Shown here piece by piece: positions 41,683-49,915 of a stretch of DNA of 64,000 bases. Location: contig DATMXP010000014.1 in NCBI GenBank assembly GCA_035561515.1, forward strand, positions 62,001 through 126,000, in the 5' to 3' direction. The position numbers and the translations under genes were made by a program. Below the pieces are notes generated by a model. It ran no database searches. It was not told the DNA's origin and was given only the letters and a program-made list of their open reading frames with translations. Origin of the DNA: Terriglobales bacterium. GTDB lineage: Bacteria > Acidobacteriota > Terriglobia > Terriglobales > Acidobacteriaceae. The stretch's first letter is position 1; the number at the start of each line of letters is the position of its first letter.

Positions 41683-42233
41683 TGCGCGTCGTAGTACGAA
41701 GAAAATACGTTCTGATGATTGTAGCCCTTTGCGTCGTTCTTTCCCCAGCGCGATTGGCGGGGGATCATGCTCCTCAGCAGATGGCCGGGAGAGCTCCAAC
41801 TAGCTGCGCCGGAATAAGGCTCGGCCGCGATACGTTTGACCGGCTGCGAGCGCGATTTGGTGAACCTAAATCTACCCGAAAGGAACTTGCAAAGGGCTAC
41901 TCAGATCGAGGGAACATTGATTACGAATGGTTGGTCGGAGACACAAAGGTATCAGCCGGTTCGTATTTCGTCGACAGAGAAGAGTCGCCAGTTTATTCCG
42001 TAACGGTTTCAGGCAAGCGTTCTGGAGAAACCGGGACTTGCGTGCTGGTCCTCGGTTCCAACGGTACAAGCGCCTCAAGGAAATTCGGCCGTGCGATGCG
42101 TGTCGTATCTCGTTACCCGAACGGGCGAACATCATCATTCGAGGTAGAGTGGTCTGACGGTACGACGCTCCGTGGCACGATCGATGACGATCGCAGAATC
42201 ATGCAACTAACGTTGACTTCGGCGATCGAGTGA
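41682..42233 (+). CDS. Secreted protein, probable immunity protein 2
   Basis: A 183-residue protein whose ATG shares one base with the upstream stop (TGATG). It begins with a signal peptide (MRVVVRRKYVLMIVALCVVL), then a beta-rich domain with two Cys. Its TGA overlaps the following GTG start (GTGA, 42230-42233). No family recognised. Position directly after the L,D-transpeptidase-like tip and predicted export make it the likely antidote to a periplasm-acting toxin. Confidence 0.55.
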   Translation: MRVVVRRKYVLMIVALCVVLSPARLAGDHAPQQMAGRAPTSCAGIRLGRDTFDRLRARFGEPKSTRKELAKGYSDRGNIDYEWLVGDTKVSAGSYFVDREESPVYSVTVSGKRSGETGTCVLVLGSNGTSASRKFGRAMRVVSRYPNGRTSSFEVEWSDGTTLRGTIDDDRRIMQLTLTSAIE

Positions 42234-43018
42234 TTTCGAGGTACAGGTACGACGTCTCACCGCGTTATACGTACCAGTTCACCGGCAAAGAACGTGACTC
42301 TGAAACCGGACTCGACTACTTCGGGGCCCGATACTACGGAAACACAGTGGGACGGTGGACGAGCCCTGACTGGGCCGAGACTCCAAAAACAGTGCCGTAC
42401 TTGGACCAGAGTGATCCGAGAACTCTTAATTTGTATTCATATGTCCGGAACAACCCCGTCTGGTTGCCGGATATAGACAGGCATGAAGATGGGCTTATAA
42501 AAGATTTCCTGAATGTAGTTGAAGTTGAAGTTGACGCTGGCGTAGGTGTGAAAGCTTCAGCACAAGCCGGAACGGTGGAGTACAAGGTCGAAGCTCTGCG
42601 AGTTGGAGTAGAACTGAAGTCAGGACTCGGAGGAGGTAACGCAGAGGCAAAGGATGTTGCGAAGCTTTTTGAATTCGGAGCTCAATCGGGACCGGTGGAA
42701 GGCAAGATCAAGGCAGGAGCTGAACTATCAACCGTTGACGGTGCGAAGGTTGAGGCAAGCGCTAACGGTCGGATCGGTCCGGTCCAAGGGTCGGTCAGTA
42801 TTAACCACGACGGAAATGTGGACAAGAGCCTGACGCTCGCTGGGAACAAAGACGTAAAAGTCGGAGCGACTCTCCAGGGAATGATTGGGATTGGAGTCAA
42901 AATCAACTTCAGTCAGCTCGGAAGGGCTTTAAGTAGCACCAGAGAGAGTTTGAATCTATTTGGCCAATATCTTGTTCAAGAAATGCAGAAATCTGTACCA
43001 GATAGGGATTTATTGTGA
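42230..43018 (+). CDS. Orphan Rhs core plus unknown beta-rich tip (cassette 3)
   Basis: A 262-residue protein from a GTG start overlapping the previous stop (GTGA). A 12-residue lead (ISRYRYDVSPRY) enters the Rhs core (TYQFTGKERDSETGLDYFGARYYG, TSPDWAE, NLYSYVRNNP). The core ends in LPDIDRH where the usual motif is DPDGH, i.e. slightly degenerate. The tip (about 80-262) is rich in short beta-like Val/Gly/Ala/Lys repeats and ends in an amphipathic helix; no nuclease or known toxin motif was seen. It closely resembles cassette 1 at nucleotide level in the core. The next gene overlaps it by GTGA. Confidence 0.65.
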   Translation: MISRYRYDVSPRYTYQFTGKERDSETGLDYFGARYYGNTVGRWTSPDWAETPKTVPYLDQSDPRTLNLYSYVRNNPVWLPDIDRHEDGLIKDFLNVVEVEVDAGVGVKASAQAGTVEYKVEALRVGVELKSGLGGGNAEAKDVAKLFEFGAQSGPVEGKIKAGAELSTVDGAKVEASANGRIGPVQGSVSINHDGNVDKSLTLAGNKDVKVGATLQGMIGIGVKINFSQLGRALSSTRESLNLFGQYLVQEMQKSVPDRDLL

Positions 43019-46312: not shown

Positions 46313-47539
46313 ATGTCTAAGACTCTCAAAGCGGTACTCCTTCTCTCTTCCGTAGCAGTTGTGGCTTTCATCGTAATCGGCGGGCTTCGCGTCAGCGCTG
46401 CGTCCAATGACGGCGCTTACCGCCAGCTTGGCGTGTTCAGCGAAGTTCTTTCGCGTATCCGGACGGAGTACGTGGAAGAGCCAAACATTCCGCAGGTGAC
46501 CGATGGCGCGCTGCACGGATTGCTGGAGTCTCTCGATGCCAATTCCAGCTACCTGACGCCAGAGGAATACAAGAAGCTCAAGGAACGCCAGAACGAGGGC
46601 AAGGGCAACATCGGCGCCACGATCTCGAAACGCTTCGGCTATGCGGCTGTCGTTTCCGTGCTGCCCGGAAGCGCCGCGGCGAAGTCGGGCGTAGAGACCG
46701 GAGACATCATTGAAGCAATCGAGGGCCGCAGTACCCGCGAGATGTCTCTGGCGGAGATCCAGGGGCTGCTAGCCGGACAGGTGGGATCGAACCTCAATGT
46801 TTCGATCGTGCGTGCTCGTCGCGCCGAGCCGTTGAAGGTCACTATCACTCGCGACCTAGTGAAGTATCCACCGGCAAGCGAGAAGATGCTGCAGGAGAAC
46901 ATCGGATACATCAAGGTCGACGCGCTTCCTAAAGGCGAATCGCAGCAGATTGCGGAAAAGATCAAGGGAGCGACTTCGCAGGGCGCGAAGAAACTGATTC
47001 TCGATCTGCGGGATACGTCCGACGGCGACATGAACGAGGGCATCGCAGCGGCGAACCTGTTCCTCGATCATGGAACCATCACCTACCTGCAGGGGCAGAA
47101 GTATCCGCGTGAAACGTTCACAGCCGATCCGAAGAAAGCCATCACCACGTTACCGGTAGTTGTGCTGGTGAACCGTGGGACGGGTGGCCCAGCGGAAGTG
47201 GTCGCCGCGGCGCTCCTGGAAAATGCACGCGCCGATGTGGTTGGCGACAAGACATTCGGAATCGGATCGATTCAGAAGGTAATCAATGTTCCTGACGGAT
47301 CGGCGCTGATCCTGTCGATCGCAAAGTACTACACGCCGAATGGCAAAGCGATTCAGGATACCGCGGTGACGCCGAACATTACCGTCGCGGAGAACGACGA
47401 CGACTTCGTGCTCCCCGATGAGGACGCACCGGAATCGACTCCGGAACCTGAACAGAAGAAGGTTCGCACTCTGGAGAACGACCAGCAATTGCAGCGGGCG
47501 ATCCAGGTTCTTCAAAACAAAGAGAAGAAAGCCGCCTGA
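46313..47539 (+). CDS. S41 (CtpA-like) peptidase homologue lacking the catalytic Ser and Lys
   Basis: A 408-residue C-terminal-processing-protease homologue: signal anchor (residues 7-27), an S41 N-terminal helical region, a PDZ domain (about 97-180) and the S41 core (about 185-360). The nucleophile motif, GTASASE in active members, reads GTGGPAE with Gly292 at the Ser position, and the base motif FGKG reads FGIG with Ile317 at the Lys position, 25 residues later as in active enzymes. The NPGG-type oxyanion segment is also changed (LDLRDTSDGD). The fold looks intact, so this is probably a pseudoprotease with a binding or scaffold role in the periplasm. A strong terminator follows, ahead of PBP1A. 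Confidence 0.85.
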   Translation: MSKTLKAVLLLSSVAVVAFIVIGGLRVSAASNDGAYRQLGVFSEVLSRIRTEYVEEPNIPQVTDGALHGLLESLDANSSYLTPEEYKKLKERQNEGKGNIGATISKRFGYAAVVSVLPGSAAAKSGVETGDIIEAIEGRSTREMSLAEIQGLLAGQVGSNLNVSIVRARRAEPLKVTITRDLVKYPPASEKMLQENIGYIKVDALPKGESQQIAEKIKGATSQGAKKLILDLRDTSDGDMNEGIAAANLFLDHGTITYLQGQKYPRETFTADPKKAITTLPVVVLVNRGTGGPAEVVAAALLENARADVVGDKTFGIGSIQKVINVPDGSALILSIAKYYTPNGKAIQDTAVTPNITVAENDDDFVLPDEDAPESTPEPEQKKVRTLENDQQLQRAIQVLQNKEKKAA

Positions 47540-47558
47540 TATAAGCAGTTCACTTGAG

Positions 47559-47581
47559 ATCGCGGGCCAAGTGCCCGCGAT
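47559..47581 (+). terminator. Rho-independent terminator after the S41 homologue
   Basis: Perfect 9-bp stem ATCGCGGGC (47559-47567) / GCCCGCGAT (47573-47581), a 5-base loop, then TTTGCTTTTT. Confidence 0.9.
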
Positions 47582-47671
47582 TTTGCTTTTTACCTAGAAG
47601 GAACGCCTCGCCGCCATGCCGTCTACAGCGTGCTATTCTGAACCTGCTCTGAGCCAGTTTCCAGAGAGACG

Positions 47672-49915
47672 ATGTCGATCCTAGCAGCAGAACCACCTCC
47701 GCCGATGGTCATCCGACGCCGGCGTTGGCTCAGCGTTCTCGCATTTTCCATCCTGGTGATTGCGGCAGCGGTAGTCGGCGCTACGGCGGGCGTGTTGCTG
47801 GTCTACACCACCGACTTGCCGGAAGTGTCGGAACTGGAACGGTACCGTCCGAGTTCGGTTACAGAACTTTACGACGATCAGGGCAAAGTCATTGGATCGT
47901 TCGCGCTGCAACGGCGCGTGGTCGTGAGCTACGACGACTTTCCGAAGGTCCTGCGCGAAGCCATTCTCTCGATTGAAGACAAAGACTTTTATCGTCACTG
48001 GGGCATCAACCTGTGGCGCGGCATTGGTGCTGCGTACTACGACCTGACAGCGGGAGCGCGAGTGCAAGGGGCGTCGACAATCACCATGCAGTTGGCGCGC
48101 AACTTGTACCTTTCGCCGGAGCGCAGTTTCCACCGAAAGCTGAACGAGATTCTGCTGTCGATGCAGATCGAGCGGCGTTTTACGAAAGCGCAGATCTTTA
48201 CCCTCTATGCCAACCAGATCTTTCTTGGTCACGGCGTTTACGGCTTCGAGGCCGGTGCACAGTACTACTTCAGCAAGCACGCTAAGGATCTGACGCTCGA
48301 GGAGGCGGCATTACTCGCAGGCCTTCCCAAAGGGCCCAGCGCATTTTCGCCGATTAACAATCCCGAGCGCGCACTGCGGCGTCGCAACCTGGTGATCAAC
48401 GCCATGCTGGAAGATGGGAAGATCACCGCCGCGGAAGCTGCCCGCGCGAAGAATTCTCCGGTGCGACTGCGCATCCAGAGCGATCCAAATTGGCTGGCAC
48501 CGTATTTCGTGGAGGAGATTCGCCGCTACCTCGAACGCAAGTACGGTACTGACGAAGTACACGAGCGAGGTCTGCGGGTGTACACGTCACTGAATACCGG
48601 CTTGCAGATGGCAGCGAACCAGGCGGTGCTCGATGCGCTCGCAGCTTACGAGCGGCGTCACGGGTGGAAGGGCGTTCTTCCCAATGCAATTGCAGAGGGA
48701 GTTGATCTGGCGAAGTACGACCATCCGGATTGGGACAAACCAATCCGCGTCGGCACTTACGTACATGGCTTGGTGACAGACGTTGCTCCGGACCAGGTTC
48801 ACGTGCGTTTCGGGGTATACACCTCGACGCTGACGCTTGCGGACATGGCATGGACGAAGCGCAAGGGTTACGAGGAGATCCTGTCGAAAGGCGACGTGGT
48901 GTATCTAAAGGTGACGTCGCTCTCATCGGAGGGGCAGGCGAAGGCGACACTGGAACAAGATTCCGGAGCGCAAGGAGCGCTGCTGGCACTGGACAACGCA
49001 ACCGGTGACGTAAAGGCGCTCGTGGGAGGACGCAACTTCGATCTGTCGAAGTTCAACCGTGCTACGCAGGCGTATCGTCAGGTCGGATCGTCGTTTAAGC
49101 CGTTTGTTTACGCGGCTGCCGTCGAACAGGACGGAGCGACTCCCGACGACGTCATCCTGGATGCGCCGGTGACATTCGCGACCGCGTCGGGCGCGTGGTC
49201 ACCGAGAAACTACGACGGCAAGTTCGAAGGCAACATTACATTGCGGCGGGCGCTAGCGCAGTCACGCAACGTTCCGGCGGTAAAAACTGCCGCGAAGGTC
49301 GGCATCAAGACTGTCATCGATTACGCACGCAAGTTCGGTATCACATCACAGATTCCGCCGGTGTTGCCGGTTGCGCTCGGATCAGCCGACCTGACGCTGA
49401 CGGAGCAGGTGAGCGCGTTCACGGCATTTCCCAACGATGGTGTCCGCGTAGTACCCCGCTACATCCGCAAGGTTGAAGACTATAACGGGCGCGTGCTGGA
49501 ACAGAATTACCCCGAAGCGAAAGATGTGATTTCGGTGAATACTGCTCGCACACTAACCGCAATGTTGCGCGAAGTGGTACTACATGGGACCGGATTCCAG
49601 GCTTCGAAGCTCAACCATCCACTGGCGGGGAAGACGGGAACGACAAACGATTACACCGACGCATGGTTCGTAGGGTTTTCTCCGTCGATCACCTGCGGGG
49701 TGTGGATCGGGTTCGACGAAAAGAGATCGCTTGGCGAAAAAGAGACTGGCGCACAGGCAGCTTTGCCGGCGTGGGTCGAATTCATGAAAGTGGCTATCCA
49801 AGGTCATGAGAACGAGCAGTTCCCGGAGGCGCCGAAGCCCGAGAAAGCTGCCAACCCAGTGGCGCGCAAAGTGGATACTCCAGACTTCCGTCCGGGTGAC
49901 GGCGAAGCGCACTAA
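47672..49915 (+). CDS. Penicillin-binding protein 1A family, bifunctional glycosyltransferase/transpeptidase
   Basis: Polymerises lipid II into glycan strands and crosslinks stem peptides. The 747-residue protein has a transmembrane anchor (about residues 19-46), a GT51 domain with catalytic Glu102 (SIEDKDFYRHWG) and QGASTITMQLARNLYL, and a transpeptidase domain with SSFK (473-476), SRN near residue 531 and KTGTTND (from Lys654). The tail is short and Pro/Lys-rich. Length and domain order match class A PBPs of the PBP1A/PbpF type. Confidence 0.93.
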   Translation: MSILAAEPPPPMVIRRRRWLSVLAFSILVIAAAVVGATAGVLLVYTTDLPEVSELERYRPSSVTELYDDQGKVIGSFALQRRVVVSYDDFPKVLREAILSIEDKDFYRHWGINLWRGIGAAYYDLTAGARVQGASTITMQLARNLYLSPERSFHRKLNEILLSMQIERRFTKAQIFTLYANQIFLGHGVYGFEAGAQYYFSKHAKDLTLEEAALLAGLPKGPSAFSPINNPERALRRRNLVINAMLEDGKITAAEAARAKNSPVRLRIQSDPNWLAPYFVEEIRRYLERKYGTDEVHERGLRVYTSLNTGLQMAANQAVLDALAAYERRHGWKGVLPNAIAEGVDLAKYDHPDWDKPIRVGTYVHGLVTDVAPDQVHVRFGVYTSTLTLADMAWTKRKGYEEILSKGDVVYLKVTSLSSEGQAKATLEQDSGAQGALLALDNATGDVKALVGGRNFDLSKFNRATQAYRQVGSSFKPFVYAAAVEQDGATPDDVILDAPVTFATASGAWSPRNYDGKFEGNITLRRALAQSRNVPAVKTAAKVGIKTVIDYARKFGITSQIPPVLPVALGSADLTLTEQVSAFTAFPNDGVRVVPRYIRKVEDYNGRVLEQNYPEAKDVISVNTARTLTAMLREVVLHGTGFQASKLNHPLAGKTGTTNDYTDAWFVGFSPSITCGVWIGFDEKRSLGEKETGAQAALPAWVEFMKVAIQGHENEQFPEAPKPEKAANPVARKVDTPDFRPGDGEAH

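Follow-up and report, generated by a model that had tools for sequence, protein, structure and literature searches.

In many Gram-negative bacteria, CTP proteases set the levels of peptidoglycan hydrolases, and NlpI and LbcA are the adaptors of Prc and CtpA, respectively. The terminal helices of CtpA form its dimer and hexamer contacts. In P. aeruginosa CtpA (PA5134), replacement of either the catalytic serine (S302A) or the catalytic lysine (K327A) abolishes activity in vivo, mutation of the glutamine has only a minor effect and marks it as the least important residue of the triad, and His84 is placed near the catalytic lysine in the active enzyme (PMC11021448). The gene lies in the order envC-ctpA-PA5135 (PMC12569750), and PA5135 is the orthologue of the E. 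coli septal peptidoglycan deacetylase SddA/YibQ (PMC12569750, PMC12440217). The B. subtilis CtpB variant S309A, a PDZ-gated S41 ring with a dead serine, retains the ability to bind a C-terminal peptide and to change its conformation (PMC3808539). E. coli Prc/Tsp, together with NlpI, acts on cell-wall enzymes through an S41 core and a PDZ domain. Among S41 relatives, vertebrate IRBP/RBP3 is non-proteolytic. No description of a bacterial S41 pseudoprotease family was found in the open-access papers searched.

The window of 64,000 nucleotides analysed here comes from an uncultured, soil-dwelling member of the Acidobacteriota. It contains a gene of 408 codons whose start and stop lie where an earlier note on this DNA had placed them (Table 1). 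Pfam detected both a Peptidase_S41 domain (PF03572, residues 196–358, E-value 2.2e-38) and a PDZ domain in the 408-residue protein, and the predicted fold is that of CtpA, in agreement with the note's description of an intact PDZ domain and remaining core. The score of the NCBIfam prc profile TIGR00225 was 224.9, above the cut-off of 218.6, so annotation pipelines will name this dead protein a peptidase. By sequence, the solved structures closest to the window protein are those of H. pylori and P. aeruginosa CtpA. Both are S41A enzymes with the fold and domain order of the window protein, and their structural alignment with it gives approximately 30–34% identity. The PDZ domain also carries a Ser105-Lys/Arg106 pair, which is specific to the pseudoprotease family and missing from the canonical paralogues.

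Table 1. Features of the pseudo-CtpA locus (window positions).
Feature	Position	Strand	Evidence
S41/CtpA-type pseudoprotease CDS, 408 aa	46313..47539	+	ORF (ATG at 46313, stop codon ending at 47539); PF03572 + PDZ; TIGR00225
N-terminal hydrophobic helix, residues 3–30: predicted export signal or single membrane anchor	46319..46402	+	sequence; AlphaFold model
N-terminal helical region, residues 33–78, equivalent of CTP N-terminal dimerisation region; includes Asn77	46409..46546	+	
Asn77 codon, canonical auxiliary His position	46541..46543	+	
PDZ domain, residues 101–182	46613..46858	+	Pfam PDZ_6/PDZ; conservation
S41 core, residues 196–358	46898..47386	+	PF03572; Foldseek to CtpA/CtpB/Prc
TSDG (residues 235–238) replacing NPGG loop	47015..47026	+	
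Gly292 codon GGC, catalytic Ser position	47186..47188	+	read from window; alignment
Ile317 codon ATC, catalytic Lys position	47261..47263	+	read from window; alignment
Gln321 codon, third of Ser-Lys-Gln set, kept (136/145 family members)	47273..47275	+	
C-terminal helix, residues 391–407; protein ends ...KKAA-COOH (405–408 at 47525–47536)	47483..47536	+	
Intrinsic terminator: 13-pair stem, 5-nt loop, then CTTTTT	47555..47585	+	
PBP1A-family peptidoglycan synthase, downstream neighbour	47672..49915	+	TIGR02074; conserved in many Terriglobales by synteny

The catalytic columns were anchored on the H. pylori CtpA chain of PDB 9ku3 (S300A/K325A/Q329A), the mutated letters of which align with Gly292, Ile317, and Gln321. 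The alignment bears out the claim that the catalytic serine and lysine, 25 residues apart, are replaced by glycine and isoleucine, and the oxyanion segment is altered from NPGG to TSDG, as had also been noticed. A further change, absent from the earlier note, is the loss of the auxiliary histidine, which is present in 29 of 31 canonical paralogues, is D, N, or Y in the pseudoprotease family, and is Asn77 here. The window protein thus has the S41 core, the PDZ domain before the core, and the glutamine of an active S41A CTP, and lacks the catalytic serine, the catalytic lysine, an NPGG-type loop, and the auxiliary histidine. Given the minor effect of the glutamine mutation in P. aeruginosa CtpA, the sole triad residue kept here is the dispensable one. 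Unlike the P. aeruginosa and H. pylori enzymes, the window protein is therefore not expected from its sequence to be active; it would not count as an active CTP and seems to work like the binding half of one.

It is very improbable that the protein still cuts by means of other residues. Gln321 is kept and both Ser105-Lys/Arg106 and Lys/Arg313 are conserved across the family, but residues 105 and 106 are adjacent to each other and lie in the PDZ domain, outside the core, and the NPGG loop and the histidine are gone too. Thr290 was rejected as a substitute catalytic residue because it is shared with nine of the 31 intact paralogues, which bear the normal serine, and Lys313 was rejected on its position and its state in intact paralogues. 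No family-conserved Ser/Lys pair that might substitute at the active site was found in the aligned sequences, which leaves the pseudoprotease reading of the earlier note standing. Selenocysteine at the active site was also considered for in-frame TGA codons in three genomes (G432, G449, and G374); there TGA serves as the terminal stop only.

The replacement is not peculiar to the window. Of 100 relatives searched, about 90 have an orthologue, full or partial, and only three of the relatives without one are at least 90% complete. At the serine site, the 145 aligned family members have glycine in 135, serine in six, asparagine in two, and alanine and glutamine in one each. At the lysine site, at least 15 different residues occur, lysine in three members and E, D, V, A, R, and others in the rest. 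The phylum's canonical S41 paralogues, 31 in the alignment, all have both Ser and Lys. Glycine together with a non-Lys residue also prevails among the more divergent members from other families of the phylum. In named genomes, including Terriglobus roseus DSM 18391, glycine occupies the serine site at 79 of 80 loci; all the matches of this search were acidobacterial, and its patterns were themselves drawn from the pseudoprotease family. The earlier note named conserved Gly and Ile at the two sites in orthologues as the mark of a stable pseudoprotease family: this held for the glycine (135/145) but not for the isoleucine, since the site varies and is merely non-Lys in 142/145. The lysine site is free to vary except that lysine is almost never present.

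The glycine at the serine site is encoded by GGC (60), GGG (33), GGT (31), and GGA (32), none of them rare, indicating that the residue is kept and not the codon. Pairwise dN/dS was mostly 0.02–0.13 in the closest pairs, with a median of 0.11 over 72 pairs. The low dN/dS and the use of all four codons point to selection both for the protein and for glycine at the serine site. A stop-containing or truncated copy (L091) was observed in one related genome, G096. The chance that we are dealing with a decaying pseudogene or an assembly error, for which this copy could speak, is close to nil, as the low dN/dS, the full-length frames in well over a hundred independent assemblies, and the fixation of glycine over saturated synonymous change all stand against it; for the family, this explanation is already refuted. 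With glycine kept, lysine avoided, and strong purifying selection, these proteins form a stable pseudoprotease family, as proposed, and not a set of decayed genes. The catalytic loss is stable and shared across most of the phylum, not local.

Orthologues with both normal residues, a finding that would count against the earlier note, occur only in two small lineages: L064, L076, and L079, from one Terriglobia family, and L277–L279, from another lineage. Their sequences suggest that some members of the pseudoprotease family may cut. L064 and L076/L079 have no auxiliary histidine and carry CGGE or CAGH in place of NPGG, so that activity cannot be assumed for them. When the motif columns are left out of the tree, the L064/L076/L079 group (lineage f9) lies among dead members. 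A single loss, with this group placed basally with the canonical enzymes, was 19 log units worse (p-AU 0.018) and was rejected, which means that catalysis was either lost many times, mostly to glycine each time, or regained. The serine codon in f9 is TCG, at least two steps from any glycine codon. The TCN serine codons appear to favour retention of the serine with parallel losses, whereas the tree appears to favour regain; judged from these sequences, parallel losses with the serine retained in f9 may be given the same likelihood as regain. In addition, L049 and L056 have a half-lost site, in which the serine is kept (TCN codons) and the lysine is replaced by isoleucine.

An AlphaFold model was obtained with 39 pseudoprotease-family sequences as input. 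The mean pLDDT was 88.8 and the pTM 0.82, and the pLDDT fell below 50 only at residues 26–32 and 366–381. Foldseek returned, in order, H. pylori CtpA, P. aeruginosa CtpA with LbcA, B. subtilis CtpB, D1 protease, and Prc, and the all-resting H. pylori CtpA chain aligns to the model at 2.9 Å. The model suggests that the CtpA fold is intact despite the dead site. The N- and C-terminal helices are conserved in the pseudoprotease family, and the N-terminal region has the lowest mean column entropy among the regions measured in the family (1.45 versus 2.04 in the canonical paralogues). RBP3 is among the weak PDB matches. As RBP3 is itself a non-protease S41 relative, one might suppose that the window protein binds small hydrophobic ligands or other non-peptide cargo in the same manner; this is improbable, because the PDZ domain, the N- and C-terminal CTP architecture, and the cell-wall gene context are kept here, unlike in IRBP. 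IRBP consists of tandem modules without a PDZ domain and functions in retinoid transport, with no clear functional relation, whereas the window protein is a single core with a PDZ domain. E. coli Prc/Tsp also differs from the pseudo-CtpA in being active and much larger, with other termini. In iRhoms and other pseudoproteases a protease fold is likewise kept for a non-catalytic job; the fold and clan are different, and the likeness is one of analogy only.

The conserved terminal helices also bear on the main rival reading, in which the genome's one intact S41 protease, L001, a CtpA/CtpB-like paralogue of 539 residues, has the pseudo-CtpA as its inactive partner or its regulator, acting in mixed dimers or rings or as an adaptor. 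Exactly two S41 domains are encoded in the genome, one of them intact and the other dead, and the P. aeruginosa CtpA dimer bound to LbcA has just one of its protomers in the active state (PMC11021448). The KAA tail described below could also be read by the PDZ domain of L001. Nevertheless, L001 is only about 31% identical, has a different and longer C-terminal part, and is encoded by a gene unlinked to that of the pseudoprotease, and we regard such a partnership as possible but rather doubtful.

The gene neighbourhood led us to consider a role in the cell wall. In the lineage of the window, the pseudoprotease gene mostly lies 100–400 bases before the PBP1A gene, at many loci. At 24 loci, from deep-branching relatives and part of Terriglobia, the next gene downstream on the same strand encodes a PF04748 divergent polysaccharide deacetylase, and M23 (EnvC-like) peptidase genes lie upstream in all four of the PF04748 loci examined by Pfam. 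The order M23, pseudo-CtpA, PF04748 was observed in L299–L304, L307–L310, and others. This is the genomic place of P. aeruginosa ctpA (M23/EnvC-ctpA-PF04748), shared by the deep acidobacterial relatives; it is a trait of the family that does not extend to the window locus, where PBP1A is the replacement neighbour. In other clades, the gene adjoins the divergently read ruvX-mltG upstream and often precedes thrS-infC. It is mainly the presence of a cell-wall enzyme in each of these three differing settings that speaks for a cell-wall function, and the variation of the neighbours among lineages implies no single partner.

We consider it reasonably probable that the protein is an acidobacterial CtpA orthologue that has lost catalysis and kept its fold, and that it serves peptidoglycan enzymes in the periplasm as a scaffold or switch that bears a PDZ domain and is not proteolytic. 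Its sequence suggests that this dead CtpA relative probably works by binding, not cutting. It would be exported to the periplasm and, like CtpA, would assemble by way of the helices at its N- and C-terminal ends. The PDZ domain and the closed groove would then bind the C-terminal tails of periplasmic cell-wall proteins, candidates being M23/EnvC-like activators, MltG, PBP1A, and other hydrolases. In the bound state, the pseudo-CtpA may influence peptidoglycan growth and cell separation without cutting, either as a ligand-responsive scaffold or as a sequestering switch. Several observations weaken the scaffold reading: the neighbours differ between lineages, two small lineages carry Ser and Lys, a terminator separates the gene from that of PBP1A at the window locus, and a search of the window's genome for PF04748 proteins found none. 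The earlier note had described the gene as expressed-looking, with its own terminator. The terminator is present, but no sigma-70-like promoter was found for the gene, so its expression is putative.

The C-terminal tail provides a further lead. An AA end occurs in 75 of 173 family members, mostly as KAA, and the window protein ends in KKAA. The same end was found in none of 247 neighbouring proteins (RuvX, MltG, ThrS, InfC, PASTA, deacetylase, and PBP1A) and in only one of 45 canonical S41 paralogues. It is present in 23 of 37 representatives sharing less than 45% identity, indicating that the tail is not due to close copies. PDZ domains of CTPs bind short non-polar C-termini, such as Val-Pro-Ala in CtpB (PMC3808539), and this preference makes the KAA tail a candidate ligand. 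By this analogy, the family's own PDZ domain or the active paralogue may take the tail as its ligand; a PDZ ligand or a degron are both possible. A bolder version, which we think unlikely, is that the pseudo-CtpA is ancient and phylum-wide and controls peptidoglycan growth as a ligand-gated switch without proteolysis, with the KAA tail as the PDZ ligand in cis, in an adjacent subunit, or for the active paralogue, and that both Ser/Lys lineages descend from a dead ancestor and became catalytic again.

Most of a large environmental phylum thus appears to carry a dead orthologue at the place of CtpA, still called a peptidase by profiles, which raises the question of the role of a CtpA unable to cut. 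The pseudo-CtpA corresponds in nature to the mutants S302A and S309A of structural work, with a natural glycine in place of the engineered alanine of CtpB S309A. It also shows in clean form how Ser was fixed to Gly, by convergence or in an ancient event, next to a freely varying lysine site, and the Ser/Lys lineages provide a test case for catalytic loss versus regain. Elsewhere in the window, the ORF at 42230–43018 starts with YTYQFTGKERDSETGLDYFGARYYG, which resembles the core-end motif of RHS/YD-repeat proteins.
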